This document shows positions 4,258 through 38,234 of a DNA stretch of 44,437 bases, one piece after another. How positions within the stretch are numbered: position 1 is the stretch's first letter; the number at the start of each line of letters is the position of its first letter. The notes beneath the pieces are model-generated. The model searched no databases and was not told where the DNA came from. It saw only the letters and a list, made by a program, of their open reading frames with translations. The DNA is from Candidatus Krumholzibacteriota bacterium. Its GTDB lineage: Bacteria > Krumholzibacteriota > Krumholzibacteriia > LZORAL124-64-63. A program made the translations under genes and the position numbers. The stretch is taken from assembly GCA_024275485.1 (NCBI GenBank), contig JAJRZA010000049.1:1-44437 (forward strand). The letters are read 5' to 3'.

Positions 4258-4283
4258 TGGGTTTGTTTACACCAGGGCCCAAC

Positions 4284-15793: not shown

Positions 15794-15943
15794 TTTCTGC
15801 CTCCTTATTCTTTATGAGGCCACCTTGATGGTGGCATTGTTGTCCGGTTTGGCCGGTCGCTTCATGGAGTGAGTGCGGGCCCGTCAGGATTTGTTACAAC
15901 TTTTGTTCATCTTTTGGGGGTACCAAAGGGAGATCGCCTACCA

Positions 15944-16543: not shown

Positions 16544-16547
16544 GGGT

Positions 16548-16850: not shown

Positions 16851-17411
16851 CTACCGGTAGAGCGACTTCACAGCACCCCAGCTGGATTCCTCTGTGCTCA
16901 CCACATCGTTGGAATATTCGACGATCATGGGCTTGGGATTCAAGCTGTGATGATCGTTCCACATGCCACCGCCACCAGGGGTGAACTGCAGATACATCTC
17001 GCCATACAGTTCATCCCAGTCGTTAGGTTCGCCGGGAGCCCAGTTGATCCAGTCGAAATCTTCTTCGGTGACCCAATGCCAGTTCAAGGCGGGTTCGCTG
17101 TGGTCACTGTTTTGGTAGCCGCCAATCCAGGGATCGCCATAGGGAGCGGGAGCGTCCCCACCGAGAACGGAGTAGTACACGAAATCGTTTTCATCCTGGC
17201 TGGTCAGCGTCACGAGGTAGCCGGGATTGCCGAACATGGTGCGGTTTTCGGCGATGATTTGTGCTTCTTCCCAGGTGACCAACTCTTCGAGGTATTCGTA
17301 ATAATGGCCGTTGCCGTCCCACTGGATGGCTTGGGCGGATACCAGCTGGGGATAGGTAGCCACCACAGCCAAAAGGGCCAGAACCAGCAATGCCTTGTAT
17401 CGAGCGTTCAT
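16851..17411 (-). CDS. Secreted C-type-lectin-domain protein with WG-x2-K-x2-YR tail
   Basis: A 186-residue protein with a signal peptide (hydrophobic residues 7-24, ending LVSAQA). The mature part matches a C-type lectin-like domain: YYEYLEELVTWEEAQIIAE, GYLVTLTSQDENDFV, WIGGYQ, WHWVTEEDFDWINWAPGEPN and MWNDH. The EPN triplet is the one that favours mannose-type sugars with Ca2+ in animal lectins. The last 11 residues, SSWGAVKSLYR, recur in altered form (ATWGTFKAIYR) at the end of the unrelated secreted protein at 37611-38234. The ATG at 17411 is chosen for GGAGGT 7 bases upstream; a frame starting seven codons earlier lacks one. A strong promoter lies at 17487-17516. Sugar binding is inferred. 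Confidence 0.88.
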   Translation of the reverse strand: MNARYKALLVLALLAVVATYPQLVSAQAIQWDGNGHYYEYLEELVTWEEAQIIAENRTMFGNPGYLVTLTSQDENDFVYYSVLGGDAPAPYGDPWIGGYQNSDHSEPALNWHWVTEEDFDWINWAPGEPNDWDELYGEMYLQFTPGGGGMWNDHHSLNPKPMIVEYSNDVVSTEESSWGAVKSLYR

Positions 17412-17486
17412 TTCACTACCTCCGTAGACCAATGATCAGGAAAAAGCCCGAACGAAAAGAGCCTTATCTTACGTTGTCATCCCTGA

Positions 17487-17516
17487 ATTATACCAGAGCT
17501 TTCTTTCTTTTTCCAA
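17487..17516 (-). promoter_or_regulatory. Sigma70-type promoter of the lectin-like gene
   Basis: On the minus strand TTGGAA (17516-17511), an 18-base spacer and TATAAT (17492-17487) with an upstream TG (extended -10, TGGTATAAT). The expected start of transcription is near 17480, about 70 bases before the ATG. The perfect -10 hexamer suggests strong expression by the main sigma factor. Confidence 0.65.
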
Positions 17517-17540
17517 CTATTTTTTTATCTTTAGTGCTTT

Positions 17541-18293
17541 TCAGGCTTCGGCTGTTTTTGTGTCCTGTTCCTCAACTTGTTGGGGTTCAAGGGATATTGT
17601 TTCCATTTGTCCCTCAATCCACTCTTCAACATGTTCGTTGATTTCTCCGGCTTTCATACCTTTGGCTTGCAGAGCGGGTCCAACGATAACCTTCACCGTA
17701 CCCGGTTTGATGATGAAACCCTTGCTGCCCCAGAAATCCCCGGCATTGTGGGCCACCGGCACCACCGGAAAACCACTGCGAGCGGCCAGCATCGCTCCCC
17801 CGATGCTGTATCGCCTGCGGCTGCCGGACGGCGTGCGGGTTCCTTCGGGAAAGATGACCACCCACAAGCCCCGCTGCAGACGTTCTGTTCCTTGCTTGAT
17901 CACCTGCACCAGGGCTTTCTTGCCACCCTTGCGATCGATGGCAATGGCACCCATCACTTTCAGGCCCCAACCAAAAATGGGCACCCACAACAATTCCCGC
18001 TTCAAAACCCAGACCTGGGCCGGGAAAATCGATTGAAGAGCAAACGTTTCCCAGGCCGACTGGTGTTTGCAAAGAATAATGCCGTTCTCGGCGGGAATAT
18101 TGTCAGCCCCCACCACTTCATGCCGCACACCGCAAACGATCCGCAGCATGGAAATGACTCCTTCGGACCAACGGGCCATAAAACGATTACGCAGCGTCCC
18201 CGGCAGAATCAGGCACAGCAGGAGCATGGGCACCACAAGGACAACCGCCACGCCCAACAGGATATAAAACAGCAGACTCCGCAGGAACAACAC
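17541..18293 (-). CDS. plsC: 1-acyl-sn-glycerol-3-phosphate acyltransferase
   Basis: A 250-residue membrane-bound enzyme that acylates lysophosphatidic acid to phosphatidic acid in phospholipid synthesis. An N-terminal hydrophobic helix (residues 2-30) is followed by the acyltransferase motifs: block I CKHQSAWET, block II near KRELLWVPIFGWGLKVMG, block III VVIFPEGTRTPSG and block IV FPVVPVAHNAG. Block I reads H-x4-E instead of the textbook H-x4-D, a variant also common in bacterial PlsC. Translation starts at GTG 18293, which has GAGGAG 6 bases upstream. The gene follows the M16 peptidase gene by 15 bases, at the end of the tpiA-M16-plsC run. Confidence 0.93.
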   Translation of the reverse strand: MLFLRSLLFYILLGVAVVLVVPMLLLCLILPGTLRNRFMARWSEGVISMLRIVCGVRHEVVGADNIPAENGIILCKHQSAWETFALQSIFPAQVWVLKRELLWVPIFGWGLKVMGAIAIDRKGGKKALVQVIKQGTERLQRGLWVVIFPEGTRTPSGSRRRYSIGGAMLAARSGFPVVPVAHNAGDFWGSKGFIIKPGTVKVIVGPALQAKGMKAGEINEHVEEWIEGQMETISLEPQQVEEQDTKTAEA

Positions 18294-18308
18294 CTGAACT
18301 CCTCTGGA

Positions 18309-21062
18309 TCAGTCAACAACCACTTCCACCAGTGGCATGGTCTTGAGGTACTTGTCTGCCGCCGCCTGCATGCTCTCCAGGGTAACCTGGTCGTAGGCCG
18401 TCAGTGCATTGAGATACCCGGGAATATCATCAGCCAACTCGGCCATGGCCAAATAGTAGGCCTGCCCCATGGAAGACAGACGACGCATCATCATGCGACC
18501 TGTGCGAGCGCTGCGGATTTTGTCCAGCTCATCCTGGGAGATGGACGAAGCATCGAAATCGGCGATGAAACTGTTGAGGGCCTCCATGCCTTCGTCCATG
18601 CGCTCCACCGGCGGGTTCAGCCAAGCCACGAATTCACCAATTCCGCCAAGGACCGAGAAGCGTGCGCCCACGCTGTAACTGAGGCCCCGGGTTTCACGCA
18701 GGTCCATGGCCATGCGGTCGCTCATGATGGCGGTGACGAGTTTGAGAGCATCGGCATCATCGGTGTCCACCGCAATGATGGAGCCCAGTCGAATGGCGCT
18801 CAATTCGCCACCCAGGGTCTCGCGAACCTGGACCGCTGCCGTGGTCAAGGGCAAAGGTGGCAAACCGTCCACGGGTTTTCCCCGACCGGGCAGTTTTTCT
18901 TCGATGAGCTCACGCATTTCCTGGTGGGGATACGGTCCCACAATGGAAAAAATCAGATTTTCCGGTGAGAACGCCTTGCGATAAACCTGGCGCATCTGGT
19001 TGAAATCCAGGGCGGCCAAACTCTCGGCGTCGCCTTCGGCAGGCAAAACCATGGGATGGTCACCATAGAGAATCTCATCCAGTTTGCCGTTGGCAACGGT
19101 GCGGGCACTGGCCTGACCACGGTTCAGGGCTTTCAGACGCTTGCTGCGCAGGCGTTCGAAATCATCGTCGTCGAAAGAGGCGTGCTGGATTTCACGCACC
19201 AGCATATCCAGCATTTCCGGGCCGTATTGGCTGGCCAATTCGATGCGAATAAAACTGAAGCGTCCGTTGGTGTAGTAGTTGTCCATGGGGATGCGGTCAT
19301 CATCCACGAGCTTGACCACCGCGCCGAGTTCACGCAAGCGGCGGGCCAGGCAGCTGCGATCACAACCTGAATAACCTTCGGTGAGCATTCGGTGCACCAG
19401 ATCCAGGGCTCCGGCGTGGGCGTTATCACGGTCAACAATGGCACGACCACGAACCGTCAGGTGGATGGCCATCAGCGGACTGTCTTCATTGGTTTGGCTG
19501 ATCAGCACCGCGCCGTTGGCCAACTCGCTGCGATCTACCTTCAACACGGCTTGTACGGTTTCCTTGGCTGTGGGTTTTTCTCCAGCGTCGGAATCATCCG
19601 GCATACCCCCCATGCCCTGTTTTTTCATGGCTGCCATCATCGCCGGCGACATCTTCATGCCTTTGGGCATACCCATGGCGGCCATGGGATCTTCGGATTC
19701 GCCCGCCTCTTTTTCAATGAGAACCGCCAGACAGGGTGAGTCAACAAGCCAGTTGGTCATGGCCCTGGTCACATCTTCGGAAGTCACTTCGCGCAGGCGT
19801 TCCAGGTAGGAAACAAAAAAGTCCACACCACCCAAGGCCACCGGTTCGGCAATGTAAATCCCCGTCATGCGCAATTGTTCGCGCTCAAGAAGGGTTTCGG
19901 TTTCGGACATGCGCTGGATACCCAGAATATCTTCTTCGGAAATCCCCATTTCGATGGCGCCGACCAGGGCGTCCTGCACCAGGCGATACAGCGCGGAAGG
20001 ATCGGTTTCATTCTTCAGGGAAAAGTGCAATGTCAGACGACCAAAGCCTTCGGCCTTTTCCCAGCCCAGGGACAATCCCGGGCGCACGCTCTCGTCCAGA
20101 TCCTCAAGAGCACCGGTCAATACGCCACTGCCCTCGAGATCCAGCAACTGGACCATGACCAGGAAGGGGAAGAAATCATCCATGCCATAGGTGGGTGCTT
20201 CAAAAGCCAGGGCCAGCAGACGTTCGTCCCCTGCCCGACGAGTGATCGAAGAAGTTCTGCTGATATACCCGGCAGAGCGCAAACCTGTGTGGTCGGCAGT
20301 GCCCGGAGCAATGCTGCCATAGTATTTCTCCAGCAACTCCAGGGCATCCTCACGCTCAAAGTTACCGGCCAAGGTCAGGATCATGTTGTTGGGCACATAC
20401 CATTTCCGATAAAACTCGTAAACATCGTCGCGGACCATGTGCTCAATGGTGCTCTTGGTGCCCAGGGTTGGCAATTCCAGGCTGGTGCCCCCATAAAGAG
20501 CTTGCCGCAGGGCCACTTGGGTCTGGTGTCCGGGCCAGTCGCGACCCTGGACTATTTCACCCAGCACGATGCCTTGTTCCTTGGTGAATTTCTCCTCGGG
20601 AAGGATGGAGTGGAACAGCATTTCCGATTGCAGCTCCAAGCCCGTGGCCAATTCGGCGGCCGGAATCACCATCATGTAATTGGTGAAAAAATCGGTGGTG
20701 TTGGCGTTGTTGTAGGCTCCGGCCCGGTCGGCCATGTCGTACTGCTCTTCCTGGGTGTACTTGGTGGACCCATTGAAAAGCAGATGCTCCAACATGTGAC
20801 TCATGCCACTGGTGCGAAAGTCTTCCCAGGCGGACCCTACCTTCACCTGGGTGAAGATGCCGGCCATGGGCTGGGCTGGATTGCACATCAAGATAACTTC
20901 CAGGCCATTTTCCAGGCGCAGCACTTCCACATTTTCCGGCAAGGGATAAAATACCGGATCCAGATTCGGGTCGAGGTACTTTCCATCCTCGGGAGCTGCC
21001 ACAACCCCAAACGCAGAAAAACACATCACCAGCATGGCAACAGATAAAATAAATTTCGGCAC
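18309..21062 (-). CDS. M16 (insulinase/pitrilysin-like) zinc peptidase, secreted
   Basis: A 917-residue two-repeat M16 peptidase. The N-terminal half has the inverted zinc motif HxxEH in MSHMLEHLLFNGS, and the later GIVLGEIVQ segment has the expected third-ligand Glu. The C-terminal half (from about residue 500) repeats the fold without the zinc motif, as in inactive M16 halves, and has the R/Y-type segment ETRGLSYSVGARF. Residues 1-25 form a signal peptide, so it should act in the periplasm. I choose GTG at 21062: GGAGG lies 9 bases upstream and the protein then begins VPKFILSVAMLVMCF. A Met-rich linker near residues 480-510 (MAAMGMPKGMKMSPAMMAAM) is unusual. Confidence 0.93.
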   Translation of the reverse strand: MPKFILSVAMLVMCFSAFGVVAAPEDGKYLDPNLDPVFYPLPENVEVLRLENGLEVILMCNPAQPMAGIFTQVKVGSAWEDFRTSGMSHMLEHLLFNGSTKYTQEEQYDMADRAGAYNNANTTDFFTNYMMVIPAAELATGLELQSEMLFHSILPEEKFTKEQGIVLGEIVQGRDWPGHQTQVALRQALYGGTSLELPTLGTKSTIEHMVRDDVYEFYRKWYVPNNMILTLAGNFEREDALELLEKYYGSIAPGTADHTGLRSAGYISRTSSITRRAGDERLLALAFEAPTYGMDDFFPFLVMVQLLDLEGSGVLTGALEDLDESVRPGLSLGWEKAEGFGRLTLHFSLKNETDPSALYRLVQDALVGAIEMGISEEDILGIQRMSETETLLEREQLRMTGIYIAEPVALGGVDFFVSYLERLREVTSEDVTRAMTNWLVDSPCLAVLIEKEAGESEDPMAAMGMPKGMKMSPAMMAAMKKQGMGGMPDDSDAGEKPTAKETVQAVLKVDRSELANGAVLISQTNEDSPLMAIHLTVRGRAIVDRDNAHAGALDLVHRMLTEGYSGCDRSCLARRLRELGAVVKLVDDDRIPMDNYYTNGRFSFIRIELASQYGPEMLDMLVREIQHASFDDDDFERLRSKRLKALNRGQASARTVANGKLDEILYGDHPMVLPAEGDAESLAALDFNQMRQVYRKAFSPENLIFSIVGPYPHQEMRELIEEKLPGRGKPVDGLPPLPLTTAAVQVRETLGGELSAIRLGSIIAVDTDDADALKLVTAIMSDRMAMDLRETRGLSYSVGARFSVLGGIGEFVAWLNPPVERMDEGMEALNSFIADFDASSISQDELDKIRSARTGRMMMRRLSSMGQAYYLAMAELADDIPGYLNALTAYDQVTLESMQAAADKYLKTMPLVEVVVD

Positions 21063-21092
21063 GTTGTTCTTCCTCCACAAAGTAGAAACTGG

Positions 21093-21863: not shown

Positions 21864-21910
21864 GATGGCTCCCGTTCATGACAAGGTTGCAACATTGGTT
21901 TTCGACAGGG

Positions 21911-21939
21911 AATATGGCATTTTTTAGGCGAGTTGTCCA
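21911..21939 (-). promoter_or_regulatory. Candidate promoter of tpiA
   Basis: On the minus strand TGGACA (21939-21934), a 17-base spacer and CATATT (21916-21911), about 50 bases upstream of the tpiA ATG. The palindromes GTGGGCCCAC (21943-21952) and CCTGCAGG (21956-21963) lie just upstream and could be operators or chance. Confidence 0.4.
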
Positions 21940-22022
21940 CTTGTGGGCCCACTGTCCTGCAGGTGCACAAAGAAGGAACGACCCAAATGCCATCCCGCCA
22001 ATTCCCTGAAAAAACACCAAAA

Positions 22023-22931: not shown

Positions 22932-22942
22932 CCGGACCTCCA

Positions 22943-24049: not shown

Positions 24050-24072
24050 ATGTATCCTCTTCGTGGCGACCC

Positions 24073-24765: not shown

Positions 24766-25054
24766 AATCCGTCTCCAGGGTTTTGATGTATTCGGCCCGG
24801 CGTTTCCCAGATTATCGCCAGGGTAACGCCAGGCCGACTCCGAATAATGCTATCTGTGAATTGTACTTGTTTGAGGGCGGGGCTGCCAGTTTTTCTACAA
24901 GGTTTCCCTGCTGGGTCACGGGCACGATTTCTGCATTGATGAGATAAAGTCACACGGCCCATTGACCAGACGTCCCGGCAATGGTGGAATGAGCCAGGTT
25001 GTTCCCCGATGGTCGGGCAGAACACAACCCCTGGAACCAGGAAAGAGATTTGTC

Positions 25055-25831: not shown

Positions 25832-25868
25832 ACCCGGTTCAGGACATGGGGTCTGGGCGTCGTCCTTA

Positions 25869-26336: not shown

Positions 26337-26351
26337 GCACCTTCATGCCCA

Positions 26352-27509
26352 CTACTGGGGAGGAGGGGGTGTGCCGGGGTTTCGTTGCTGGTACTCTTCA
26401 AAAGAGATGTACTTGCGGACCATGTTTTCCTCGGGAAAAACTACGAAAATGTAGGCGCCAAAGTGGGTGAGTGTGGGGGTGACGGTCCGGTCCACCACGG
26501 CCAGGCTGCCGGGAATGGAAATCCCTTCATCATTGATGACGAAACTCAGGTCGAACTCACCATCCAGAAAAATCTGGATACGGTTGTTGCCTGAATCACT
26601 CACGTAGATGCGCCCACTGCCGTCCACGGCCGCGGCCTGGGGAAGAGCAAACTCACCAAGGACATCACTGACCCCGCCCACCCAGTCGGATTCGCCGCAA
26701 CCGGGAGCATCTCCCAACACAAAGGATGCCGCTGGTTGAGGCTCACAGGGTAAAGTTCGGAACTGCGCCGCCCGTCCACGCCAGGGATCCTGGTCGTCTT
26801 GATCTGGGGTGGTATCGGTCAAGTCCGGCTCACTGAAGAAGCGAATCACCCAGTTGCGATTGGGGTCCACATCACAGACCAAAAGACTGTCTTCGGTATC
26901 CCGAGCCATTCCCGCCGGGATATGGGTAAATCGAGCTCCATCACCATTGCTGCTGGTCAAAATCCCGTAAGGAGACAGACCGTCAACCTCGTCGAAGGCG
27001 TAACGATGAACAACACCGGAATCGGGATCAGCCAGATAAAGGAAAGTTTGGGCGGAAGGAACCTGTTCGATGCCGGTAGGGCAAGTGGCCAGGGAGACCG
27101 CGGTCTGAACATCGGGCACATCCGTGGAGCCCAGGAGGGTCAAGTCCGTAGTATCGTACCACAGCACCCTGGAGGTGGTTTCATCGTACACAAAGACAAG
27201 ACCCAGATCGGCATCGCCACAGAGGGAAATCAGGTTTCCAGTGCCGACCACCGGCGGAACTCCAGTGGTCAGTTCAAAACTCTGGAACCGTCTGGAGAGA
27301 CTGTCACCATGGATAATGAAAAGCCCACCCTGGATCACGGCCAGCTGCCGAGGGTCATCCACCAGGAACTCTCCTGCCGACAGATAGGCTCTGACCGAGA
27401 ACAGTCCCTTGGGCTGGGGAATGGCAATTTTTTCGCCACACCCCGAAATAAGGGAGCCGACCAACAGAAGCAGCAGAAGGGCTGCCAGCCAATAGCGTAT
27501 GTATTTCAT
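26352..27509 (-). CDS. NHL-type propeller lipoprotein
   Basis: A 385-residue secreted protein with a signal sequence ending in lipobox ISGC (about residue 24). The remainder has repeated strands typical of six-bladed NHL-like propellers. The clearest copy is AVDGSGRIYVSDSGNNRIQI near residue 300; weaker copies include LLVCDVDPNRNWVIRFF and FLYLADPDSGVVHRY. No catalytic residues are visible, and such domains usually bind proteins or sugars. The ATG at 27509 shares a base with the stop of the PorV-like gene (TGATG) and has GGGGA upstream. It belongs to the coupled surface operon. Confidence 0.82.
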   Translation of the reverse strand: MKYIRYWLAALLLLLLVGSLISGCGEKIAIPQPKGLFSVRAYLSAGEFLVDDPRQLAVIQGGLFIIHGDSLSRRFQSFELTTGVPPVVGTGNLISLCGDADLGLVFVYDETTSRVLWYDTTDLTLLGSTDVPDVQTAVSLATCPTGIEQVPSAQTFLYLADPDSGVVHRYAFDEVDGLSPYGILTSSNGDGARFTHIPAGMARDTEDSLLVCDVDPNRNWVIRFFSEPDLTDTTPDQDDQDPWRGRAAQFRTLPCEPQPAASFVLGDAPGCGESDWVGGVSDVLGEFALPQAAAVDGSGRIYVSDSGNNRIQIFLDGEFDLSFVINDEGISIPGSLAVVDRTVTPTLTHFGAYIFVVFPEENMVRKYISFEEYQQRNPGTPPPPQ

Positions 27510-28555
27510 CAGCGTCCCCTTCGCCATGCATCATCGGGTTTGCGTTGGAACAAGGGAGACAGATCCACCGAGATGTGATGAATCGTCCCAAAGCTGCCCT
27601 GATCGCTGTAGGCGTAATCGACCCGGACCAGGAACTGTTTTCGTTTGAGCTGCAAACCAAAACCGGCGGCAAAACCACCTTCCTGGCGACTTGTCTCATA
27701 ACCGGCCCGCAGGAACAGGATCTGGTTGACGCCCACTTCGCTACCGAAGCGGAAGCTCTCCTTGAAGTCGGACGGGTGGTTGAAGTCGGCGGTTGTCAAC
27801 ACGGTGAGCTTGCGGCTCATCTGCCAGGTTCTGGCAGCTCCGAAGGTCCCCACCGTGGGTGCCGGGAAACTCTGGAATTCACCACTGGGAGTGAACCCGT
27901 CGGGCAAGGTCGGTGGTGTACCACCAGGCTTCATGTCCCCACCAAAATTGCGGATCGAGAAGCCGATGCGCATGTCGCCCAGCCCCACGAAATAAAGGAT
28001 CCCTAGATCCGCCAAAATGGATTTCGTCTGGAATTCATCCAGATTCTCCTGGTAATATTTCAGGGTGATGCCCAAAGAGAAACGGTCGGTCATGGCCCGG
28101 GCCAAAGACGCTCCCACAAAGAACTGATTGGCATTGAAATACTGCCCGGTGCCTTCCTGGTGAAACTCGTCCGTGCGCAGGATATCACCCGAGCGCAAAG
28201 AGCCCATGGTCAGGCCAAATCCGAAGCTCTGCTTTCGGTGATGCCAGCTAAGATAATCCAGATCGATATCCGCGGCATAAACACTGTGGCTGGCAAAATA
28301 GTTGGTCCGGCCGGGAGTGCGCATGATGCCAGCCGGATTCCAGAATACAGCAGCACCGTCGGTTGCGCAGGCCACATAGGCTTTGCCCATGGCCACCCCC
28401 CGAGCGCCCACCGGGATGCGCAGGAACTGACCCGAGGCGGTGCCCACATTATCCTCTCCGTAGAGCCGCAGGATGTCACCAGCCAGAGCCGGCCCTCCCA
28501 ATATGAAGCTCAGCAGCAGCGCCATCACCACGAATTTCAGGGGTCGGTTTACCAT
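27509..28555 (-). CDS. PorV/UPF0164-type outer-membrane protein
   Basis: A 348-residue protein with a signal peptide (residues 1-23, cleavage after PALA). The mature N-terminus QFLRIPVGARGVAMGKAYVA with DGAAVFWNPAGI is the signature of the PorV/PorQ and UPF0164 family of outer-membrane barrels. In Bacteroidota, PorV shuttles type IX cargo from the translocon to the attachment complex. The rest alternates strands suitable for a FadL-like barrel and ends HHISVDLSPLF. The start at 28555 lies inside the end of the TonB-dependent receptor gene (7-base overlap) with GGGGGTGAG upstream. Its place beside a T9SS-like cargo protein suggests a secretion or attachment role, by inference. Confidence 0.88.
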   Translation of the reverse strand: MVNRPLKFVVMALLLSFILGGPALAGDILRLYGEDNVGTASGQFLRIPVGARGVAMGKAYVACATDGAAVFWNPAGIMRTPGRTNYFASHSVYAADIDLDYLSWHHRKQSFGFGLTMGSLRSGDILRTDEFHQEGTGQYFNANQFFVGASLARAMTDRFSLGITLKYYQENLDEFQTKSILADLGILYFVGLGDMRIGFSIRNFGGDMKPGGTPPTLPDGFTPSGEFQSFPAPTVGTFGAARTWQMSRKLTVLTTADFNHPSDFKESFRFGSEVGVNQILFLRAGYETSRQEGGFAAGFGLQLKRKQFLVRVDYAYSDQGSFGTIHHISVDLSPLFQRKPDDAWRRGR

Positions 28556-31464
28556 GAATAGCTCACCCCCCACAACAGGGTGAAGGGATTTTCGATGTAA
28601 CTGGGGTCCACAACACCCTTGGCATAATCCTCACTGTCGGTGGAGGCAAAATAGGGATTCTCTTGATTTTCCCGATCATCCCAGGTTTCCACCCAACGAG
28701 GATTGTAGTCGCCGACCTTGTAGCCATCGCCGGTGAAGGGATTGACCCGGCGATAATTGAGTTGATTGAAGAGATTGCGAACTTCCAGGTAGATGGTGAA
28801 CTTTTCCCTTCTGCCAAACCTCCAGAATTTGTTGAAGCGGATGTTGACGGTGCCCTTGTAGGGCCCGGTCTCGCTGTTGATACCGCCGCGCAGGTAATCC
28901 CGTACGCCAACGTAGGTGTAGGGCGTGTAACGCTGACCCGCTTCAGCCCGGGCCAACAGGTTGAAACTCCAGTTCCGGGGCATGCGCCAGCCGAAGATCT
29001 CGGGTTGGTCATCGTCGAAAACGGAAAAGTCCAGATTGAGACTGAGGGTCCAGGGTTTGTCCCACAGAAGCGGCGTCCTGGTCAAACCACCGATGCTGGC
29101 GGTGGGTGTATAAGCCTCGTCGTAAGCTGCTTGCAGGTAGGCTTCATCGGCGTTGCTGTTGGTTCCGGTAGTCCGTTGCAATTCCACACTTCCGGAACCA
29201 CTCAACCAACGGGTGGTGCGTTTGGTCACGGTCATTTCAATGCCCAGACTTCTGGCCGAGTCGCCGTTGAAGTAACGCACCGGCTCAATGGTCACCGTAC
29301 CGCTGTCATTAGGATCGGGAGTTTCTTCGGCACCGATGTCCACGGCCCCCAAGCGAACGCTTTTCGCGTAATCGTAGATGTCACGGTTGTAGAAGGTCAC
29401 TCCCAGGCTCCACAGTCCGCCGAACTCATGCTGAAGTCCGGTTTCGTATTCGATGGTGACCTTGGGGTCGAGGTTGGGATTGCCTAGCAGCTGCACTTCG
29501 GTGGCCGTCTTGGCTTCAAGTTGCGGATAAACGTAGGCAAACCGCGGCCATTGGCTAAAGTGTCCATAGTTGAAGAAGAATTTGTCTCGTTCGGTGACGG
29601 GAAAGCTCAGGCCCAGACGCGGGGAAAGGCGCATCTTCCAATTGCGGCCCAAAGCCCTGTAGGTGCCGTCGGCAAATTCATCGGCCATGTCATCGGTGAT
29701 GAAAAGATAATCATCCGAATTGGCCATCACCTTTTCCACTTCCTTGCCCGGCGCCCACCAGTCGGCCCGAAGACCGGCGTTGACGATGAGGCCACGGAAA
29801 TTGAGGGTATCCTGGAAGTAGGCTGCACCGGTGACTGGATGGGCCAGAAAAATATCTTCCTTGATGCCCAGCTTGCCGCTTGGCGGTGCCCCCAGATTGG
29901 TCTGCAAATCCACCAGTTGCATTTCGGTGAAACTCAGGTCGAACCCGGTTTTGAACTCGTTGTTGCCCAGCCCCATGAAAGAGTAGGCCCCCTTGAGGGT
30001 ATAGCTTTCGGAGTAGTGATCGTGCCAGCGGTCGGCCCCACCGGGCACCTGGCCATCGGGTTGGGAAATGAATTCTGCGGGTAGACCCGGGTTGAAGGGA
30101 TCCCAACCGCTGATCGGCTCATAGGTGGTGAAGTCGTCGTTGCCGTTGACGTTGGCGTGCATGCGGTTGAAGTTGCGGCCAAGGGTGAGCTCGAACCACG
30201 AGTTGTTGTCCAGCACCTGACGGTAATAAACCTGGGACAGGATATTTTCGTTGGTGAACACCATGTACTTGTCAAGGCTGTCCATGAAAGGCCTTGGGTA
30301 CCCCTCACCCGGCAGATTGAAGCCCTGACTGATGCCCATTTGCCGACTCAGGTTGATGTTGAGCTTGTGGCTGGGAGTGATATGCCAGGTCCACTTGGCC
30401 AAGCCGTTCCAGTTGTTTTTCTGACGGGGGGACCAGATGTCGTTTTCGTAGACCGGCGAGGTCAAACTGTTCTGCCGACTGTAAATGGGCAGGTAGCCAT
30501 CCCGGATGTCCATGGATCCGCTCAGCAGAAAATATTGGTTGCCGGGAATATTCAACCCGAGGGCCCGCAAACCGGCGCTGATGGGATCCGGCCCGCTGAG
30601 GCTGCCTTTGACGATGTCGATGTTTTGGGCTTCGCTGAAATTGGTGAGATCGCGCCAATCCCGGGCGTCGTTTTTTGGGACTTTTTTCCCGATATAGTCA
30701 CGTTTGAAGGAAACACGCCCCTCCACTCGATCGCTGCCCTCTTTGGTGCTGACCTTCACCACACCACTGACAGCCTGACCGTACTCGGCGTTGAAGCCAC
30801 CGGTGAGCACTTCGATCTCGTTGATGATCGAAGGATCGATTTGATAACCATAGCCACCACCGGCCAATGGATCGCTGACATTCATGCCGTCGACCACGAA
30901 CATGGTATCGTCGGCCCGGCCACCCCGGATGTGAATCTCGTTGTCCTGCATGGTCACGCCCGGGGCCATGGCCACCATGTCGACCATATTATCCAGGGGC
31001 ATGGCCTCCATCTGCTTGCTGGAGATGAAGTGGGCGCTGCCGGTTCTTTCCACTTCGATCAGGGCGCGTTCGGCCGCCACATCAAAGGGCTCGGCCATGA
31101 TGGCCTGCACTTCAAGATGGAAATCAATGTTGACCACTTCACCGGGACCAAGAGTGACCGTCTCGGTGCCAAGACCGTAGGAGATGTAGGAGGCTTTCAC
31201 CGTGTAGGTTCCCGGCGGCAGGCCACGCATGATAAAAAATCCATCGGTGAATGACATGGTGCCGATGTTGGTGCCGCTGATATAGACGTTGGTGTAGGGC
31301 ATGGTCTCGCCGGTTTCATCGTCGAAAATACGGCCCTTGATGGTCACTGGTGCCACTGGCGCCGTGGCGTTCACACCGGAACGCTGAGCCAGGGCCGGCA
31401 GAGCTGCCCCGAGCAGCAGGCCAAAAAGAATCCAGAACAGGGTTTTGGTGATGAAATGGGTCAT
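28549..31464 (-). CDS. TonB-dependent receptor with N-terminal carboxypeptidase-regulatory-like domain
   Basis: A 971-residue outer-membrane receptor. Order: signal peptide (1-26), carboxypeptidase-D regulatory-like beta-sandwich (about 40-120, VTIKGRIFDDETGETMPYTN and LPPGTYTVKASYISYG), then a plug domain (about 140-260, MEAMPLDNMVDMVAMAPGV, EIHIRGGRADDTMFVVDGMN, EIEVLTGGFNAEYGQAVSGV). A 22-strand-type barrel follows, ending in the aromatic SYSW. No clear TonB box was found between the sandwich and plug. It lacks a SusD partner; instead it is coupled by ATGA to a lipoprotein gene upstream and by a 7-base overlap to the PorV-like gene. It could import a ligand or act as part of an export or attachment apparatus; the substrate is unknown. 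Confidence 0.93.
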   Translation of the reverse strand: MTHFITKTLFWILFGLLLGAALPALAQRSGVNATAPVAPVTIKGRIFDDETGETMPYTNVYISGTNIGTMSFTDGFFIMRGLPPGTYTVKASYISYGLGTETVTLGPGEVVNIDFHLEVQAIMAEPFDVAAERALIEVERTGSAHFISSKQMEAMPLDNMVDMVAMAPGVTMQDNEIHIRGGRADDTMFVVDGMNVSDPLAGGGYGYQIDPSIINEIEVLTGGFNAEYGQAVSGVVKVSTKEGSDRVEGRVSFKRDYIGKKVPKNDARDWRDLTNFSEAQNIDIVKGSLSGPDPISAGLRALGLNIPGNQYFLLSGSMDIRDGYLPIYSRQNSLTSPVYENDIWSPRQKNNWNGLAKWTWHITPSHKLNINLSRQMGISQGFNLPGEGYPRPFMDSLDKYMVFTNENILSQVYYRQVLDNNSWFELTLGRNFNRMHANVNGNDDFTTYEPISGWDPFNPGLPAEFISQPDGQVPGGADRWHDHYSESYTLKGAYSFMGLGNNEFKTGFDLSFTEMQLVDLQTNLGAPPSGKLGIKEDIFLAHPVTGAAYFQDTLNFRGLIVNAGLRADWWAPGKEVEKVMANSDDYLFITDDMADEFADGTYRALGRNWKMRLSPRLGLSFPVTERDKFFFNYGHFSQWPRFAYVYPQLEAKTATEVQLLGNPNLDPKVTIEYETGLQHEFGGLWSLGVTFYNRDIYDYAKSVRLGAVDIGAEETPDPNDSGTVTIEPVRYFNGDSARSLGIEMTVTKRTTRWLSGSGSVELQRTTGTNSNADEAYLQAAYDEAYTPTASIGGLTRTPLLWDKPWTLSLNLDFSVFDDDQPEIFGWRMPRNWSFNLLARAEAGQRYTPYTYVGVRDYLRGGINSETGPYKGTVNIRFNKFWRFGRREKFTIYLEVRNLFNQLNYRRVNPFTGDGYKVGDYNPRWVETWDDRENQENPYFASTDSEDYAKGVVDPSYIENPFTLLWGVSYSW

Positions 31465-33047
31465 TGGGCGACGACCCCCATTTCATCGGTTAAAACCTGT
31501 TCCAAGGCGGTGATCACCTGGGCATTATTGAAATACTCCAGTTGCAAAGAAAAACAGACTACCCGGGCCAGGGGATCCACATCCCGATGCGGACGTCGCA
31601 GGGCAATGACCGGATCAAAAGGCGGTGCGCTGGGACCGTAACAACGGACGCAATATTCCATGCGGTACAGCTCTTCAGACGGTGAATCGAGGTTTTCGAG
31701 AATGTCAAGGCCAGTACCCTGACCAATACTGTAAAGACCGGTGAAACCAGGCAAGTAACTGCCGCCACCCTGGGATTCAGTAGCGCGCCCCCCGAAATTC
31801 TGCAGAATCCCTACCGGAAGTCCTGCAGAAGCATTGATACCCAGTACGTTGGAGCCAAAGGCAATGGACAATCCGTCAGTACCATAACCAGCGACAATTT
31901 TCGAGACCAGCAAAAGGCGTCCCGGTTCCCGGTCATCCAAAGGAATAACATATTGATGCAGAACACCATTGGTGGCCGAGGCGGTGCTCAAAATCGCGCT
32001 CTTGGTGCCACCATCAGTCCACAGGACCACATCGAACTGGCGCATATTCTCCAGCAGGACAAATGGCTTGTCGGGAAACCCGAAAACAAAATCGTATTGA
32101 TCCCAGTTGCCCTGGCCAAACATGCCATCCAGAAGTTCGTTGTACACGGCACGACCCACTGACGACGAATTATCCGGAATATACAGCACTGAATTTTTGG
32201 GAGCCCGCACTTCCCAGGTGTATTGGAATCTGGGGTCGCCCTGGGCTTCATCCTGAACCGAAACAGTGAGTGTTCGCTGCCCTGGATTGACATTGGTGAC
32301 AAATATATCGAACTCATAGGATTCGGTGGCGGGTTCAAAAGGAACCCTCACCCAACCGAGCTCGGGATCAGCGGCAGGGTCGTCAAAATCCCAGGTTTGG
32401 TCCGGATTGCCGCCATCAACAAGGGTGTAGCGGAAAAAATCATCCAGGGTTTCAATACCATCGAGATCATAGGCAAAGAACCGAAAGTTGTTGGCCCCCC
32501 AGTTCCAGTAGACGGTGTCCACCACAGCCTGGCCTTCATAAATGAAATCCCGCTGCATATTCTGGCGTGGCTCGTAATCCGACTGGAAATCCACAACCGG
32601 AGTATGGTTCCGCATGGGAATAAACTGGATGACGGTATCGCTCAGGGCCCCACGGTTGTCCATGCAGGCCAAAAGGAAAGTGGCGCTGGCTTCGCCGCTG
32701 TCGGGATCCGGGGAGAAGGTCATGGTGGTATCGGTGGCGGTGGTGGTATCCCAGGGAGCGGGGTTGTCGCCATCGGTGCGAATGGAAATATAGAATTTCT
32801 CCACCCAGCCGTCTCGATCGGTTCCACTCCAATTGAAGGTGCGGTGAAAATAACTGGTGGGATTCAACTCTTCACCTTCGGCGGTGGGCGTCACAAAGAG
32901 GCGGGCCACCGGAGAGTCGTTTTCCAGTGAATCGGGATCAAAAGGTTCGTTGGCGGCGCAGCCGGCCAGCCAAATGGAGAAGACAACCACCGAGAGCATC
33001 AGGGCCAGCAGCCCGGTCATCAGCGAATTTCGCTTCCAGGATCTCAT
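31461..33047 (-). CDS. Large lipoprotein with Ig-like and amidotransferase-like regions
   Basis: A 528-residue secreted protein with lipobox LAGC at about residue 29 and a Glu/Asp-rich linker. Residues about 45-260 look like one or two Ig/fibronectin-type sandwiches (TFNWSGTDRDGWVEKFYISI, FRFFAYDLDGIETLDDFFRY). Residues about 290-400 read like an alpha/beta fold: NSVLYIPDNSSS, YDFVFGFPDKPFVLLENMRQ, FDVVLWTDGGT and YVIPLDDREPGRLLLVSKIV, reminiscent of class I glutamine amidotransferase-like or ThuA-like domains, with no clear catalytic Cys. The family is not recognised. It overlaps the genes on both sides by four bases (ATGA), second in the surface operon, and may replace SusD as the surface lipoprotein of the receptor. 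Confidence 0.8.
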   Translation of the reverse strand: MRSWKRNSLMTGLLALMLSVVVFSIWLAGCAANEPFDPDSLENDSPVARLFVTPTAEGEELNPTSYFHRTFNWSGTDRDGWVEKFYISIRTDGDNPAPWDTTTATDTTMTFSPDPDSGEASATFLLACMDNRGALSDTVIQFIPMRNHTPVVDFQSDYEPRQNMQRDFIYEGQAVVDTVYWNWGANNFRFFAYDLDGIETLDDFFRYTLVDGGNPDQTWDFDDPAADPELGWVRVPFEPATESYEFDIFVTNVNPGQRTLTVSVQDEAQGDPRFQYTWEVRAPKNSVLYIPDNSSSVGRAVYNELLDGMFGQGNWDQYDFVFGFPDKPFVLLENMRQFDVVLWTDGGTKSAILSTASATNGVLHQYVIPLDDREPGRLLLVSKIVAGYGTDGLSIAFGSNVLGINASAGLPVGILQNFGGRATESQGGGSYLPGFTGLYSIGQGTGLDILENLDSPSEELYRMEYCVRCYGPSAPPFDPVIALRRPHRDVDPLARVVCFSLQLEYFNNAQVITALEQVLTDEMGVVAQ

Positions 33048-35059
33048 TTGATGATCACCAGCTTTCCGCGTTGCACTTCATCGGTGTCCAGATTGGTTAC
33101 CGCAAAGATGTAAAGGCCCGAGGCCGTGGCCCGACCGGCATCAGTCAGGGTGTTCCAGGACGCCATACCCAGGGCAGGGTCGTCGTGTTGAATAGTCTTG
33201 ACCACCTCGCCCACCAAGTTGAAAACCTGGATGGTGCAACGGGCAGGCAAACCGGTGAACCAGATTTTCCGGCCCAGTTCCAGTTCACCCGTATGGGAGT
33301 CGAAGAGACTGGCGGCGCGGTAGGGGTTGGGGAAAACACCCACACCCTTTTCTGAACCAGAAGCAGAAGGACCGGGCCCGGGGAAAACCAGCATGCCGTT
33401 CTCGTTGAAGCCGCTCTGGAATTCCGGCAGTTGCTCCAACTCGTTGGGGGCGGTGAAAGTCACCACGGAATACCAGTAGGGGAAACCGTCCAGCAGATTG
33501 GTATCCACAAATTCCCGGTGTCCGGCTTCATTCAGTGGCGGCAATCCGGTGTCGAAACCACGTCCGTCCACGATGTCGTACTGGGCCACCATTTCGGCGA
33601 TTTCATAGGGATCGCCGGTGAAGGAATTGCCTTGGAACCGATATATTCGGTAGCCCTGAAAATCTTCCCGGCCCGTGGCGCTGCTCAGGTGGTGTTCCGG
33701 AGAGCGCAAAGGGCTGTCGTCCGGCAATTCGACCCCATCGGCATCCAGGCTGTCGCCCGGAGCCCAATGCAAAATCACGGTGTCTTCAGCGAAACCAAAT
33801 TCCAGAATGGGAGATGGCGGGCCGGCGGGAATGGAGAAGCCATCGTCGAACGCGACTTGGGCGATTTTGCTGTTGTCCAGCAAGCTGAGGGAATCGGCAC
33901 CCGCTACCACGGCAAAGGTGATGCTGATGGTATCGCCTGGAGCCAGGCTCGGGAAAGGGCCGGTGGAAATGATGCTCACCCAGTTCGAGGCGATGGAATA
34001 ATTGTTCTCCTGGGTTTCTCCCACATCGAAATCCCGGTTGCCCATGATTTGGTATTTGCCGGGCACGGGTTCGTCCGGATTGTCGGGGTCGAAGTACCAG
34101 TCGTCGGCCTGGGGTACACCGCGAAAACGCCAGGAATTGTAGGATACCGGAGATTGACCCGGATCCGGCTGTGCCTCTTCGCTGGTGCCCAACAGCCGAT
34201 AGCCGATCCAGCTGGTGGCCAAACCTTCTTCACCGTCGTCATCGTGTTCGTAGGCCATCCAAATTCCGGGGTCGTTCTCGGGAGTATGGGAAGGATCCAC
34301 AAATCCCTGGGCTCCCCAGGCACCGTTGAAATCGTCAGAAAAAATCCAGCGGACAGGTGCACCGGAATCGTAGGGATCCGTCTGCTCGGTGTTGCCGACA
34401 GTGGTATCCACCCAAAGCCCCAGGTACAGATCCCGCAATTCATCTCCAGCGTACTCATCCGTTTCAGTGATGTTGATGATGCGGTAATTCAGAATGACAA
34501 AATCATCGGCGTAGGGATTGCTCCAGGCTAGGGTCCGCATATTCACCTTGATTCCCAAGGCTTCGTGACCGCCGCTTTCGGGAACGGCATAGTCGTTGAA
34601 ATTGCATTCGATATGCTGGGTGGCCAGGGCATTGAGGCTGAAATTCGGAGCATTCTGGCTGTTGGAAATGATGTTTAGGCCATCTTCAGGGCAAAGGCCG
34701 ATAAGGTCAAACTCCCTGATTTCATCTCCCTCGCCCACACCATTGGCATCCTGGCTGCCTGTTGAGACCCGAACCTCTCCGGAGGGAAGCACGGCCCCTA
34801 CCCACAAGCCGCCACTGTAGACATGTTCGACATTGCTGTTCAGAGGATATTCCCCCGAGGGATTTCGATTGGCGAAAGAGTTTCCAAAGTAACCAAGATT
34901 GGTAACGGTCAACCCGAGCAGACCTACATTGGTATAAACATCAGTGCGAGCGGGAGGTTGATCGCAATTTTCTTGACCAAATGCCTGGCCGGTCCAGGTT
35001 GCAACCAGCAAAGTGACCACGTACAGAAGGGCTGTTCGGTTGGGTTTCCACTTTTTCAA
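33044..35059 (-). CDS. Secreted protein with C-terminal T9SS-type sorting-like domain
   Basis: A 671-residue protein and first gene of the surface operon. It starts at TTG 35059; the only support is the following signal peptide (hydrophobic 11-24, AFGQ cleavage) and absence of a better start. The middle is beta-rich with Asp-rich loops and a fibronectin-like region (YRIYRFQGNSFTGDPYEIAE). The last about 100 residues match the T9SS type A or FlgD-Ig-like C-terminal domain: GVFPNPYRA, KIWFTGLPARCTIQVFNLVG, SGLYIFAVTN and the ending RGKLVIIK. Such domains direct cargo through type IX secretion in Bacteroidota. Adhesive or structural function is likely; no enzyme motif is seen. It overlaps the next gene by four bases. 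Confidence 0.85.
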   Translation of the reverse strand: MKKWKPNRTALLYVVTLLVATWTGQAFGQENCDQPPARTDVYTNVGLLGLTVTNLGYFGNSFANRNPSGEYPLNSNVEHVYSGGLWVGAVLPSGEVRVSTGSQDANGVGEGDEIREFDLIGLCPEDGLNIISNSQNAPNFSLNALATQHIECNFNDYAVPESGGHEALGIKVNMRTLAWSNPYADDFVILNYRIINITETDEYAGDELRDLYLGLWVDTTVGNTEQTDPYDSGAPVRWIFSDDFNGAWGAQGFVDPSHTPENDPGIWMAYEHDDDGEEGLATSWIGYRLLGTSEEAQPDPGQSPVSYNSWRFRGVPQADDWYFDPDNPDEPVPGKYQIMGNRDFDVGETQENNYSIASNWVSIISTGPFPSLAPGDTISITFAVVAGADSLSLLDNSKIAQVAFDDGFSIPAGPPSPILEFGFAEDTVILHWAPGDSLDADGVELPDDSPLRSPEHHLSSATGREDFQGYRIYRFQGNSFTGDPYEIAEMVAQYDIVDGRGFDTGLPPLNEAGHREFVDTNLLDGFPYWYSVVTFTAPNELEQLPEFQSGFNENGMLVFPGPGPSASGSEKGVGVFPNPYRAASLFDSHTGELELGRKIWFTGLPARCTIQVFNLVGEVVKTIQHDDPALGMASWNTLTDAGRATASGLYIFAVTNLDTDEVQRGKLVIIK

Positions 35060-35336
35060 ACGCCACTCTTACCTTCAAACTGGGTGCTGCCCTGAATCTT
35101 CTGGATGCCGCGAGGCAAAAAGGGCCTATACTATGGCCCCCCATGAAAAATACCCCATGAGAGATGAGATTCAAGAGGCAATGCCGCCCACCTTCAGTGC
35201 CGGTGCTGTAAATTGGTTTCATGGCTAGGTTTCGGTGATCCCTGATCAGGACAAATCATGTGATTTTAACGTCCGAACCTGCTATTTTCCTTTGGCCGCG
35301 CATAATGGAACCTTCAATTGGCCGGATCGGATCCCC

Positions 35337-36818
35337 ATGAAACTGCACCTGAAAAAATCCACCATCAAGCCAGGCCGGCCTTTTTGGCAATTGGCGGAAC
35401 TCTTTGCCGAGCAACCCTGTTGTGCTTTGCTGGACAGTGGAATGGATCCTCGAAATCTAGGGCGTTTTTCATTTTTGACCGGACGGCCGACGGCTTTGTT
35501 GACTGCCAAGCGCCTGCCTCGGTGCGATAATTCAGAGCGGGAATTTTTGATGAATTTGACCAGGTGGCAATCCCCCGTAGGCGTCCGTGAAGAAAACCCT
35601 GTTGCAGACCAGTGGCAAGGCCAACCCTTCGCTGTTCTCCGGCATCTGCAACAAGAGTACGGAATGATCCAAGACGGAGTTTCGGATATTCCCTTCTCCG
35701 GTGGCTTGATCGGTTATCTGGGTTATGAAACCGCTCATGCCATAGAAACTTTACCCGACGAAGGCCTTGATGATCTCGGTTTGCCCGATCTGGCTTTTAT
35801 GATGGTGGATGAGGTTTTTGTGCATGACCACGCCAACGAAACAACTCGTTTGCTGGTCACCGGACGAGGTCCGGATGATGAATCCGCCAGGCTGGATGCG
35901 GAAATGCGAACGCAGCAATTGCTGATATTGCTGAGTAACTCGACCCCATCGTTGCAAGCTTTTGAGCCACCACTGGAGTCCTCGCCTGGTTCCCCAATCC
36001 GTGCCCACTTCACTCGCGAGACCTACATGCAAGCGGTGGATCGCTGCCGACAGCACATCCTCGCGGGCGACCTGTTCGAAATCTGCCTGACCCATCGCCT
36101 GGAAACGGACCTGACCTGCGAACCCTGGGAATTGTATCGACGCCTACGCGAAATCAACCCCGCCCCCTTCGCCTCCTGGTTGCACTTCGACGATTTCCAG
36201 GTGGTGAGCGCATCTCCAGAAAGATTTTTACGTTTGGACCGGGACCGCCTGGCCGAAAGCCGCCCCATCAAGGGCACGCGCCCCCGCGGCGACAACCCAT
36301 GGGACGACCGGCGCCTGCGCGACGAACTGCAAACCAGCGAAAAGGACCGGGCCGAAAATGTGATGGTCGTCGATCTGGTACGCAACGATATGGGCAAGGT
36401 GGCGGAGATCGGCTCGGTGGAAGTCCCCGAGTTGCTGGTGGTCGAACCCTACGCCACCGTCTTCCAGTTGGTGAGCACCATCTGCGGCCGCCTGCGTCCC
36501 GAAAGCGATGGTTTCGACCTGGTGCGATCATGTTTCCCCGGAGGGTCCATGACCGGGGCGCCCAAAATCGAGGCCATGAAAACCATTGACCGGATCGAGC
36601 CGGTGAAGCGGGGAATATATTCCGGTGCCATCGGTTATTTTGATCGCAGCGGAGCACTGGATCTGAGCATCGTGATTCGCACCATTGTTTGCCAAGGCGC
36701 AAAGGCCACCTTCAGTGTGGGTGGCGCCATCGTGGCCGACTCGGACCCGGCTGCCGAATATCAGGAAACCCTCCACAAGGCCAGCGCCTTGATGCGGGCC
36801 TTGGGGGTGAAACCTTGA
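35337..36818 (+). CDS. pabB: Aminodeoxychorismate synthase component I
   Basis: A 493-residue chorismate-utilising enzyme making 4-amino-4-deoxychorismate for folate. The catalytic core is seen in SASPERFLRL, RPIKGTRPRG, DRAENVMVVDLVRNDMG, CFPGGSMTGAPKIEAM and GAIGYFDRSG. The Lys in PIKGT is the residue that marks PabB; anthranilate synthase TrpE has PIAGT. The N-terminal domain is present (RPFWQLAELFAEQPCCALLD). I chose ATG 35337, since the family starts near here, though its ribosome site is weak; an in-frame frame extends to 35235. It is followed by pabA with a 4-base overlap (TTGA). Upstream lies the divergent surface operon. Confidence 0.93.
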   Translation: MKLHLKKSTIKPGRPFWQLAELFAEQPCCALLDSGMDPRNLGRFSFLTGRPTALLTAKRLPRCDNSEREFLMNLTRWQSPVGVREENPVADQWQGQPFAVLRHLQQEYGMIQDGVSDIPFSGGLIGYLGYETAHAIETLPDEGLDDLGLPDLAFMMVDEVFVHDHANETTRLLVTGRGPDDESARLDAEMRTQQLLILLSNSTPSLQAFEPPLESSPGSPIRAHFTRETYMQAVDRCRQHILAGDLFEICLTHRLETDLTCEPWELYRRLREINPAPFASWLHFDDFQVVSASPERFLRLDRDRLAESRPIKGTRPRGDNPWDDRRLRDELQTSEKDRAENVMVVDLVRNDMGKVAEIGSVEVPELLVVEPYATVFQLVSTICGRLRPESDGFDLVRSCFPGGSMTGAPKIEAMKTIDRIEPVKRGIYSGAIGYFDRSGALDLSIVIRTIVCQGAKATFSVGGAIVADSDPAAEYQETLHKASALMRALGVKP

Positions 36819-37420
36819 AGACCATCATTTTGGATAATTATGACAGCTTTACCTACAACCTTTTTCAGCTGGTGGCTGAATTACAGGATGGAATAGAGCC
36901 GCAAGTGTTTCGGCATGATGCGATTTCCGTGGCAGGGCTGCGGACCCTTCAACCGAGTCGCATCATCATTTCCCCAGGTCCGGGCAATCCGGTCAATCAT
37001 GGCTGCATGGGTGTTTGCCGGGAGGTGATTTTGATCCTGGGGCCTGAAATTCCGATCTTGGGCGTGTGCCTGGGACACTTGGCCATGATAGAAGCCTTGG
37101 GTGGGACCATTGCCCGATCGCCTGAACCACGGCACGGGAAAACGAGCCCTGTTTACCATGAAGGGATTGGAGTTTTTGCCGGGTTGCCTGATCCTTTTGA
37201 GGCCATGCGGTATCATTCCCTGGTGGGGGTTGATGATGGTTTTCCACCGGCGCTGGAAGTTACCGCGCGTACGGCTGAGGGTTTGATTATGGGAGTGCGG
37301 CATAAGCAATGGCCCATGCAGGGCGTGCAGTTCCATCCCGAGTCTATCGGGACACCGGCTGGAGAGCGGTTGATGCACAATTTTTTGATTCCTTTTGCCA
37401 TGGAGAAAGAATCCCGCTAG
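36815..37420 (+). CDS. pabA: Aminodeoxychorismate/anthranilate synthase glutamine amidotransferase
   Basis: A 201-residue class I glutamine amidotransferase that supplies ammonia to PabB. The N-terminus KTIILDNYDSFTYNLFQLVAE, the oxyanion strand IIISPGPGNP, the nucleophile segment ILGVCLGHLAM and the His/Glu pair in VQFHPESIGTPAG are visible. The elbow reads GHL where nearly all family members have GHQ. Start is a TTG at 36815 that overlaps the pabB stop, with GGGGGTG upstream; the in-frame frame further upstream lies inside pabB and is a shadow. The pairing with PabB's PIKGT motif favours pabA over trpG, but the amidotransferase may serve both enzymes. Confidence 0.92.
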   Translation: MKTIILDNYDSFTYNLFQLVAELQDGIEPQVFRHDAISVAGLRTLQPSRIIISPGPGNPVNHGCMGVCREVILILGPEIPILGVCLGHLAMIEALGGTIARSPEPRHGKTSPVYHEGIGVFAGLPDPFEAMRYHSLVGVDDGFPPALEVTARTAEGLIMGVRHKQWPMQGVQFHPESIGTPAGERLMHNFLIPFAMEKESR

Positions 37421-37531
37421 CAGGCTTTTGAAAAACGATATCAGATTTACCGCCTGCTGGATGCCGAATACTCCAGAAAATCTTTTCATGGCACAGTTTG
37501 TCAGAATTTATAATTTCAGGACGTTTAGTGG

Positions 37532-37561
37532 TTGACTTTTCGTTCTGTTTTTTGATACAAT
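37532..37561 (+). promoter_or_regulatory. Sigma70-type promoter of the lamin-tail-domain gene
   Basis: TTGACT (37532-37537), an 18-base spacer and TACAAT (37556-37561), about 50 bases before the ATG at 37611. CAGGAG precedes the start codon by 6 bases. The match is strong and suggests constitutive, high expression. Confidence 0.7.
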
Positions 37562-37610
37562 TAACCCAGCAATCAACCTGAACGCCCAAATATCCCCTCA
37601 GGAGCCCCCC

Positions 37611-38234
37611 ATGAGCAAATTGGTACTGATTCTGGCCGCCCTCGTTCTGCTGACGGGCTCCGCCCTGGCCCAAACCACGGACCTTTTTATCAGCGAGTAC
37701 GTCGAAGGAAGCAGCTACAACAAAGCGATTGAAATTTACAATGGAACCGCCGATCCCCTGGATCTTGGCCAATACACCCTTTCTTTCTATTTCAACGGCA
37801 ATACTTCCGGCGACCATCTCGCCCTCGATTCGGTTACCCTGCAGGCGGGCGAAACTTTTGTGGTGACCCATTCCAGTGCCGAAGCCGGGCTGCTGGAACT
37901 GGCCAACCAGATCTCCGGTCTGGTTGCCTTCAACGGTGACGATGTCGTCATCCTTGAGAAGAACGGCCAGGTGATCGACAGCATGGGAATCCTGGGCGTG
38001 GATCCCGGCTCCTACTGGTCATGTGCCGAGGGCAATACCCAAAACCACACCTTGCGTCGCAGAAGTGATGTCTGCCGTGGCGATACCGACGAAACCGATG
38101 ATTTCGATATTTGTGTGGAATGGGTTTTATTTTCCAACGATACCTTTGATGGGTTGGGTGCCCATGAAACCGATTGTACTTCCGTTGGAACCGGTGCAGC
38201 CACCTGGGGCACTTTTAAGGCAATTTATCGCTAG
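37611..38234 (+). CDS. Secreted lamin-tail-domain protein with WG-x2-K-x2-YR tail
   Basis: A 207-residue protein with a signal peptide (MSKLVLILAALVLLTGSALA). The mature part is a lamin-tail (LTD) sandwich: DLFISEYVEGSSYNKAIEIY, then ADPLDLGQYTL, LQAGETFVVTHSSA and FNGDDVVILEKNGQVIDSMG. LTD domains are common in secreted nucleases (ExeM/NucH type) and adhesins, but no nuclease domain is attached here. Four Cys (SCAEG, DVCRGD, DICVEW, TDCTS) may form disulfides outside the cell. The last 11 residues ATWGTFKAIYR resemble those of the lectin-like protein (SSWGAVKSLYR), though the rest is unrelated. It is preceded by a strong promoter, closely follows pabA, and converges on the amidase gene. Confidence 0.88.
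   Translation: MSKLVLILAALVLLTGSALAQTTDLFISEYVEGSSYNKAIEIYNGTADPLDLGQYTLSFYFNGNTSGDHLALDSVTLQAGETFVVTHSSAEAGLLELANQISGLVAFNGDDVVILEKNGQVIDSMGILGVDPGSYWSCAEGNTQNHTLRRRSDVCRGDTDETDDFDICVEWVLFSNDTFDGLGAHETDCTSVGTGAATWGTFKAIYR

Follow-up and report, generated by a model that had tools for sequence, protein, structure and literature searches.

The DNA analysed here is a window of 44,437 nucleotides (contig JAJRZA010000049.1, assembly GCA_024275485.1) from a Candidatus Krumholzibacteriota bacterium. It encodes two signal-peptide proteins with different folds that end in nearly the same short peptide, here called the tag. Protein 1 (16851..17411, minus strand, stop included) has 186 residues and consists of a signal peptide, a C-type-lectin-like domain (Lectin_C, E=0.002, slightly below the Pfam cut-off) and the tag. 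Its start was taken at an ATG seven codons inside an open reading frame (ORF) that begins with TTG. The signal peptide predicted from the sequence is MNARYKALLVLALLAVVATYPQLVSA (17334..17411, minus strand). The tag, VSTEESSWGAVKSLYR (16854..16901, minus strand), ends in the eleven residues SSWGAVKSLYR and is followed by a TAG stop; it is the best match to the tail profile in its own genome (E=3e-8). Protein 2 (37611..38234, plus strand) has 207 residues. A signal peptide predicted in the same way, MSKLVLILAALVLLTGSALA (37611..37670, plus strand), is followed by a lamin-tail domain (LTD, E=3.4e-18). The C-terminal sequence is GTGAATWGTFKAIYR, of which ATWGTFKAIYR (38199..38231, plus strand) is the tag, again with a TAG stop behind it.

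When the two tails are aligned, W, G, K, Y and R are identical, and S/T, S/A and L/I are conservative replacements. An earlier, sequence-only reading of the window had proposed just such a shared C-terminal motif on two secreted proteins of unrelated fold. The alignment, the different domain matches and the clear signal peptide at the start of each protein bear this out. The same reading gave both genes strong sigma-70 promoters. A sigma-70-like site matching the consensus at 10 of 12 bases does lie upstream of each gene (TTGGAA-18-TATAAT at 17487..17516, minus strand, and TTGACT-18-TACAAT at 37532..37561, plus strand). Both are consensus matches only that score just weakly above shuffled sequence, so that strong promoters are plausible.

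The tag can be searched for as the DNA pattern TGGGGN7AARN6TWYMGNTRR, which encodes WGxxKxx[YF]R followed by a stop (the strict pattern). In the window this pattern occurs exactly twice, both times at the ends of these genes, and it never occurs in 100 shuffles. The whole genome (3.98 Mb) has it at six places. A profile built from 53 tails (A2) finds 26 places in the same genome, 24 of which are tag-like ends of open frames, some of them on fragments. The motif is thus far from a chance occurrence. Within this genome the W position also accepts F and the G position D, S or N, with K and the final YR retained, as in the tails SWDGLKALYR, SFGSIKSMYR and NWSSIKSMYR. A few tails have one to nine extra residues after the tag.

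The motif is common throughout the phylum. Across 80 Krumholzibacteriota genomes the strict pattern has 851 matches in 78 of the 80, with up to 51 in one genome, compared with eight matches for a reversed control pattern. The sequence-only reading had named enrichment at the C-terminus as a check, and enrichment is what is seen: the motif without a following stop has 168 matches in the same genomes, although non-stop matches should outnumber stop matches about 12-fold if position did not matter. The tail profile likewise has no internal match in 646 genes. The consensus of 168 tails is V-[PAGS]-[VT]-E-x-[TS]-[ST]-W-G-x-[IVL]-K-[AS]-[LMI]-[YF]-R. The end common to tagged proteins is about 16 residues long and can be written [VT][PSA]xE-x-[ST][ST]WGx[IVL]K[SA][LM][YF]R, or SWGxIKxLYR for short. 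At synonymous positions of the matched DNA the codons vary freely, so selection acts on the protein.

Tagged proteins are exported proteins of many kinds. By a heuristic, signal peptides are present on 81 of 98 tagged proteins and on 116 of 446 neighbouring ORFs (p=1e-25), in agreement with the sequence-only reading, which had placed the tag on secreted proteins. Samples of about 0.4 Mb from each of two genomes, from which the secretome fractions given here are taken, were also judged by eye, and nearly all of their 16 tagged genes begin with a signal peptide; genes of the GC-rich genome were called with a codon model. The folds that bear the tag include beta-helix, NosD, LTD, NHL, MAM, F5/8, cohesin, CHRD and Calx-beta domains, and many tagged proteins have no Pfam match. 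At least two look like lipoproteins (L071, L180), and the frequency of lipoboxes does not differ between tagged and untagged proteins.

Three observations concern individual carriers. A family of paralogues of about 190 residues (L016, L017, L025, L029; L024/L173), several lying in tandem beside a tagged copy, has one form ending in SWGAIKxLYR and others ending in SWGAIKxxxE, where E stands in place of the final R. A membrane protein from Bacteroidia that is predicted to have several membrane segments (L084:4323-4910) ends in KKSTWGQIKDLFR and is the sole multi-spanning tagged protein seen. In the window's own genome a tagged beta-helix gene (L290:9698-10429 and L002, G000:C28) is split by a frameshift, so that the upstream half forms a separate ORF.

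Several well-known sorting signals are also carried at the C-terminus by many proteins and read by one system. The PEP-CTERM signal of the exosortase system (TIGR02595) is alike in kind, as the sequence-only reading had suggested, being a short C-terminal homology region on tens of unrelated exported proteins per genome. The resemblance ends there, as the tag has no PEP motif (168 tails), no transmembrane helix and no clear basic cluster. MYXO-CTERM with myxosortase, GlyGly-CTERM with rhombosortase and LPXTG with sortase are likewise many-to-one signals. Their motif is followed by a hydrophobic helix, whereas the motif of the tag itself ends the protein. All four signals need such a helix and are ruled out, since the tagged tails have none. 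This also fits the earlier proposal of a sorting or anchoring tag that lacks a hydrophobic segment. An NCBIfam search of the tail-containing proteins (E up to 10) matched no C-terminal model, no chain in the PDB matches the tail profile, and full-text literature searches for the peptide and related descriptions found no account of it. This agrees with the sequence-only reading, which knew of no named system with this tag.

The closest parallel is the type-A C-terminal domain (CTD; Por_Secre_tail, TIGR04183) of the type IX secretion system (T9SS). Like the tag, the CTD sits at the C-terminus of dozens of signal-peptide proteins per genome, with many folds, in bacteria of the Fibrobacteres-Chlorobi-Bacteroidetes (FCB) group. 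As in the tag, its last residues are basic with a conserved lysine, and it occurs on homologues of tagged proteins. It differs in being a folded, immunoglobulin-like beta-sandwich of 70-80 residues, whereas the tag, of about 10-16 residues, has a W-G core and forms no domain. The tag is not itself a CTD, because the CTD is a folded module and none of 73 tagged proteins has one, compared with 18 of 123 other proteins (p=2e-4).

On homologous proteins the two signals interchange, and this is the most telling link to type IX secretion. Untagged homologues of tagged proteins end either in a variant tag or in a T9SS type-A domain. There are eight cases of the latter, seven of them above the TIGR04183 cut-off, and in one (L120) the tagged protein and its CTD-bearing homologue lie on the same contig. 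A CTD is found on 7 of 11 homologues and on 14 of 116 other ORFs with signal peptides (p=3e-4), and the four remaining homologues are cut or frameshifted. In the two genome samples the signals are about equally frequent (7 and 9 tagged proteins, 9 and 9 with a CTD), and tagged proteins are the shorter ones (median 209-261 residues, compared with 616-929 for CTD proteins). In experimentally studied type IX systems the CTD must be folded, and export depends on its very last residues, which include a conserved lysine (PMC11285876). Mapping placed the T9SS signal of HBP35 in the final 22 residues, which sufficed (PMC11285876).

Every one of the 80 phylum genomes has the T9SS translocon SprA (TIGR04189), and the 14 controls lack it. 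SprA was also found in 31 of the 34 genomes to which tagged loci in other records led; at least five of these also belong to the set of 80. It was not found in the tag-bearing genome G101 or in two Kerfeldbacteria genomes (G102, G103). The sequence-only reading had expected the tag to co-occur with one transporter or protease family; SprA fits this nearly everywhere and fails to do so in the Kerfeldbacteria tested. Within the phylum, SprA is most canonical in one family (f3; G003-G006; best E 1e-92 to 1e-151), and this family has the fewest tags, with 3, 0, 3 and 0 strict matches. The families with more divergent SprA have the most tags.

The window also encodes proteins related to type IX secretion. 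A PorV-like outer-membrane protein of the T9SS family lies at 27509..28573 on the minus strand (PF19572 PorV, E=4.1e-7, above the cut-off). A secreted protein at 33044..35059 on the minus strand has a C-terminal region weakly resembling T9SS/FlgD-Ig domains (FlgD_ig, E=0.028). This region matches the T9SS PorZ model (E=3e-5) and is picked up by the CTD profile as well. Next to the tagged lectin gene, and convergent with it, an extracytoplasmic-function-type sigma factor and a small zinc-finger-like protein of the anti-sigma type were read at 15869-16793.

Few genes recur beside tagged genes. Conserved neighbours were found only for a family of single-copy tagged proteins described below, and all of them (maf, an ITPase-like gene, uvrB and a MATE-type transporter) are housekeeping genes. 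The only other recurrent cluster consists of sulfatase/TPR proteins.

Outside the phylum, 84,980 species genomes were scanned. Among the matches listed, exported proteins of various kinds have the same tail in records titled Eisenbacteria, Gemmatimonadetes, Coatesbacteria and Poribacteria and in unnamed bacteria, with up to 68 tags in one genome. Some record titles are unreliable. Latescibacterota (G097, G098) and Fibrobacter (G104) were dropped as tag-bearing phyla, since these records, by their identical contig coordinates, belong to the phylum set of the window.

A different pattern is seen in Hymenobacter, Adhaeribacter, Ignavibacteria, Kapaibacteria, Thermochlorobacteriaceae and KSB1 records, where exactly one protein per genome is tagged. 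This protein, here called SP-FN3-WG, has about 130 residues with a signal peptide and an FN3-like region, and ends in S-x-V-x-RTWGSIKAMFR. Its tail is almost invariant while its body is variable. Among GTDB Bacteroidota, 55 of 247 genomes have exactly one strict match, and a frame-broken control pattern has one match in all 247. The gene is often directly upstream of maf (the Ignavibacteria type) or near an ITPase-like gene (the Hymenobacter type), as in L149, L230-L245 and related loci. The protein belongs to no named family and matches only generic FN3 domains in solved structures. Its model is a beta-sandwich with a terminal helix at residues 119-130 (predicted local distance difference test score, pLDDT, 63-69). 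While SP-FN3-WG ends in the same tag as the proteins of the window, it differs in being single-copy and usually upstream of maf. It may be an ancestral or component protein rather than one of many cargoes.

Taken together, the motif is probably a C-terminal signal of the sorting type. The preferred reading, to which a probability of about 0.45 is given, is that it is a new putative sorting tag on Sec-exported proteins, parallel to the T9SS domain and read by the SprA/PorV-type machinery or a partner of it. The tag would consist of a flexible acidic linker and an end of about ten residues, [ST]W[GD]x[IVL]K[SA][LM][YF]R. It would play the role that the folded CTD plays on other, mostly larger proteins in the same cells. 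After removal of the signal peptide, an envelope receptor would recognise the free C-terminus, and the protein would then be delivered to the cell surface or to the outside. In FCB-group bacteria with an outer membrane, the most likely reader would be type IX machinery of the SprA/PorV type or a partner.

Several observations weigh against this link to type IX secretion. SprA is universal in the phylum, and thus its co-occurrence there is uninformative on cause. The interchange of tag and CTD rests on few domain-level homologies, and the two have no fold in common. The comparison of neighbourhoods found no receptor gene beside tagged genes. Bacteroidota that are rich in CTD proteins have the tag on just one protein per genome. 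The greatest difficulty is posed by the Kerfeldbacteria, a lineage of the candidate phyla radiation (CPR) without an outer membrane. In this order 7 of 10 genomes have the tag (10 matches in 9.6 Mb, none for the control, Poisson p ~1e-12), on several proteins with signal peptides and with a local consensus, TWG[HKY]LKSxYR. The tagged contigs look native: they are part of a 1.3-Mb genome and bear genes such as those for GroEL and DNA primase. Since SprA was absent from both genomes tested, type IX secretion cannot be a full explanation. In these bacteria the tag either came in by horizontal transfer or is read by something other than the T9SS. The probability given above already takes account of this.

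The same kind of tag could instead be read by a receptor or transpeptidase that is independent of the T9SS and located at the cytoplasmic membrane, the cell wall or a surface layer. FCB bacteria and Kerfeldbacteria would share this receptor, and the T9SS would merely occur in the same cells. The tags of the Kerfeldbacteria, with their own consensus on native-looking contigs, point in this direction, as does genome G101, which has 13 tags without SprA (though its contig has a T9SS-type CTD protein). So does the SP-FN3-WG protein, retained with its tag in 55 of the 247 Bacteroidota. Such an undescribed system, with its own receptor, would serve dozens of exported proteins per genome across phyla of the FCB group and one or more lineages of the CPR, with different types of envelope. 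This is a serious possibility, if a tentative one: no candidate receptor was found, the tags of the Kerfeldbacteria could have been acquired horizontally (some are on NHL proteins like those of Eisenbacteria), and the interchange with the T9SS domain would need another reason.

The remaining explanations are much less likely. The tail could be not an address but a maturation, stability or assembly signal, such as a protease-recognition or chaperone-binding tail, since PDZ domains and tail proteases can also have a short, conserved and free C-terminus as their ligand. The E-ended paralogues suggest tolerance at the last residue. This explanation is unlikely because the tag and T9SS domains exclude each other and interchange, and because the tag is confined to exported proteins whose folds differ widely. 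More doubtful still is a receptor-free peripheral anchor, in which the tail would lie in a membrane leaflet as a short amphipathic helix. W, I/L/V, L/M and Y/F do alternate with K and R, and helices are modelled at the end of SP-FN3-WG and, short, detached and with low confidence (199-206, pLDDT ~58), in the lamin-tail protein. Such an anchor would function in every kind of envelope, and its transfer would be easy. However, the mean hydrophobic moment is not unusual, being equalled in 40 of 200 column-permuted tail sets, and the near-invariant W, G, K and terminal R are too specific and point to recognition. Proteins that look like lipoproteins would also need no second anchor. Finally, only the small number of instances in the window itself speaks for chance or for shared ancestry within a few families, and this explanation is already refuted by the shuffled, reversed and other pattern controls, the unrelated folds and the diverse synonymous codons.

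A second shared end was seen in one of the Kerfeldbacteria (G102). Five other large, secreted-looking proteins (L328:9221-11368, L329:15658-17292, and L334:1399-3432, 3465-5495 and 5438-7123) have in common the C-terminal stretch D-x-x-x-P-[SA]-A-V-x-[ND]-L-x-[AV]-[KQPR]. It looks like the first strand of a truncated FN3 domain and may be a further C-terminal signal.

C-terminal sorting tags define whole targeting systems. The discovery of PEP-CTERM, MYXO-CTERM and the T9SS domains, for instance, later opened the way to new enzymes and secretion machines. In the present case, candidate phyla without genetics have dozens of exported proteins per genome that bear a tag of about ten residues, with neither a membrane helix nor a folded domain. 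A single-copy tagged protein is present in culturable bacteria such as Hymenobacter, and the reader could be found there. Because the tag and the T9SS domain interchange, it can be tested directly whether a short peptide is able to take the place of such a large signal.

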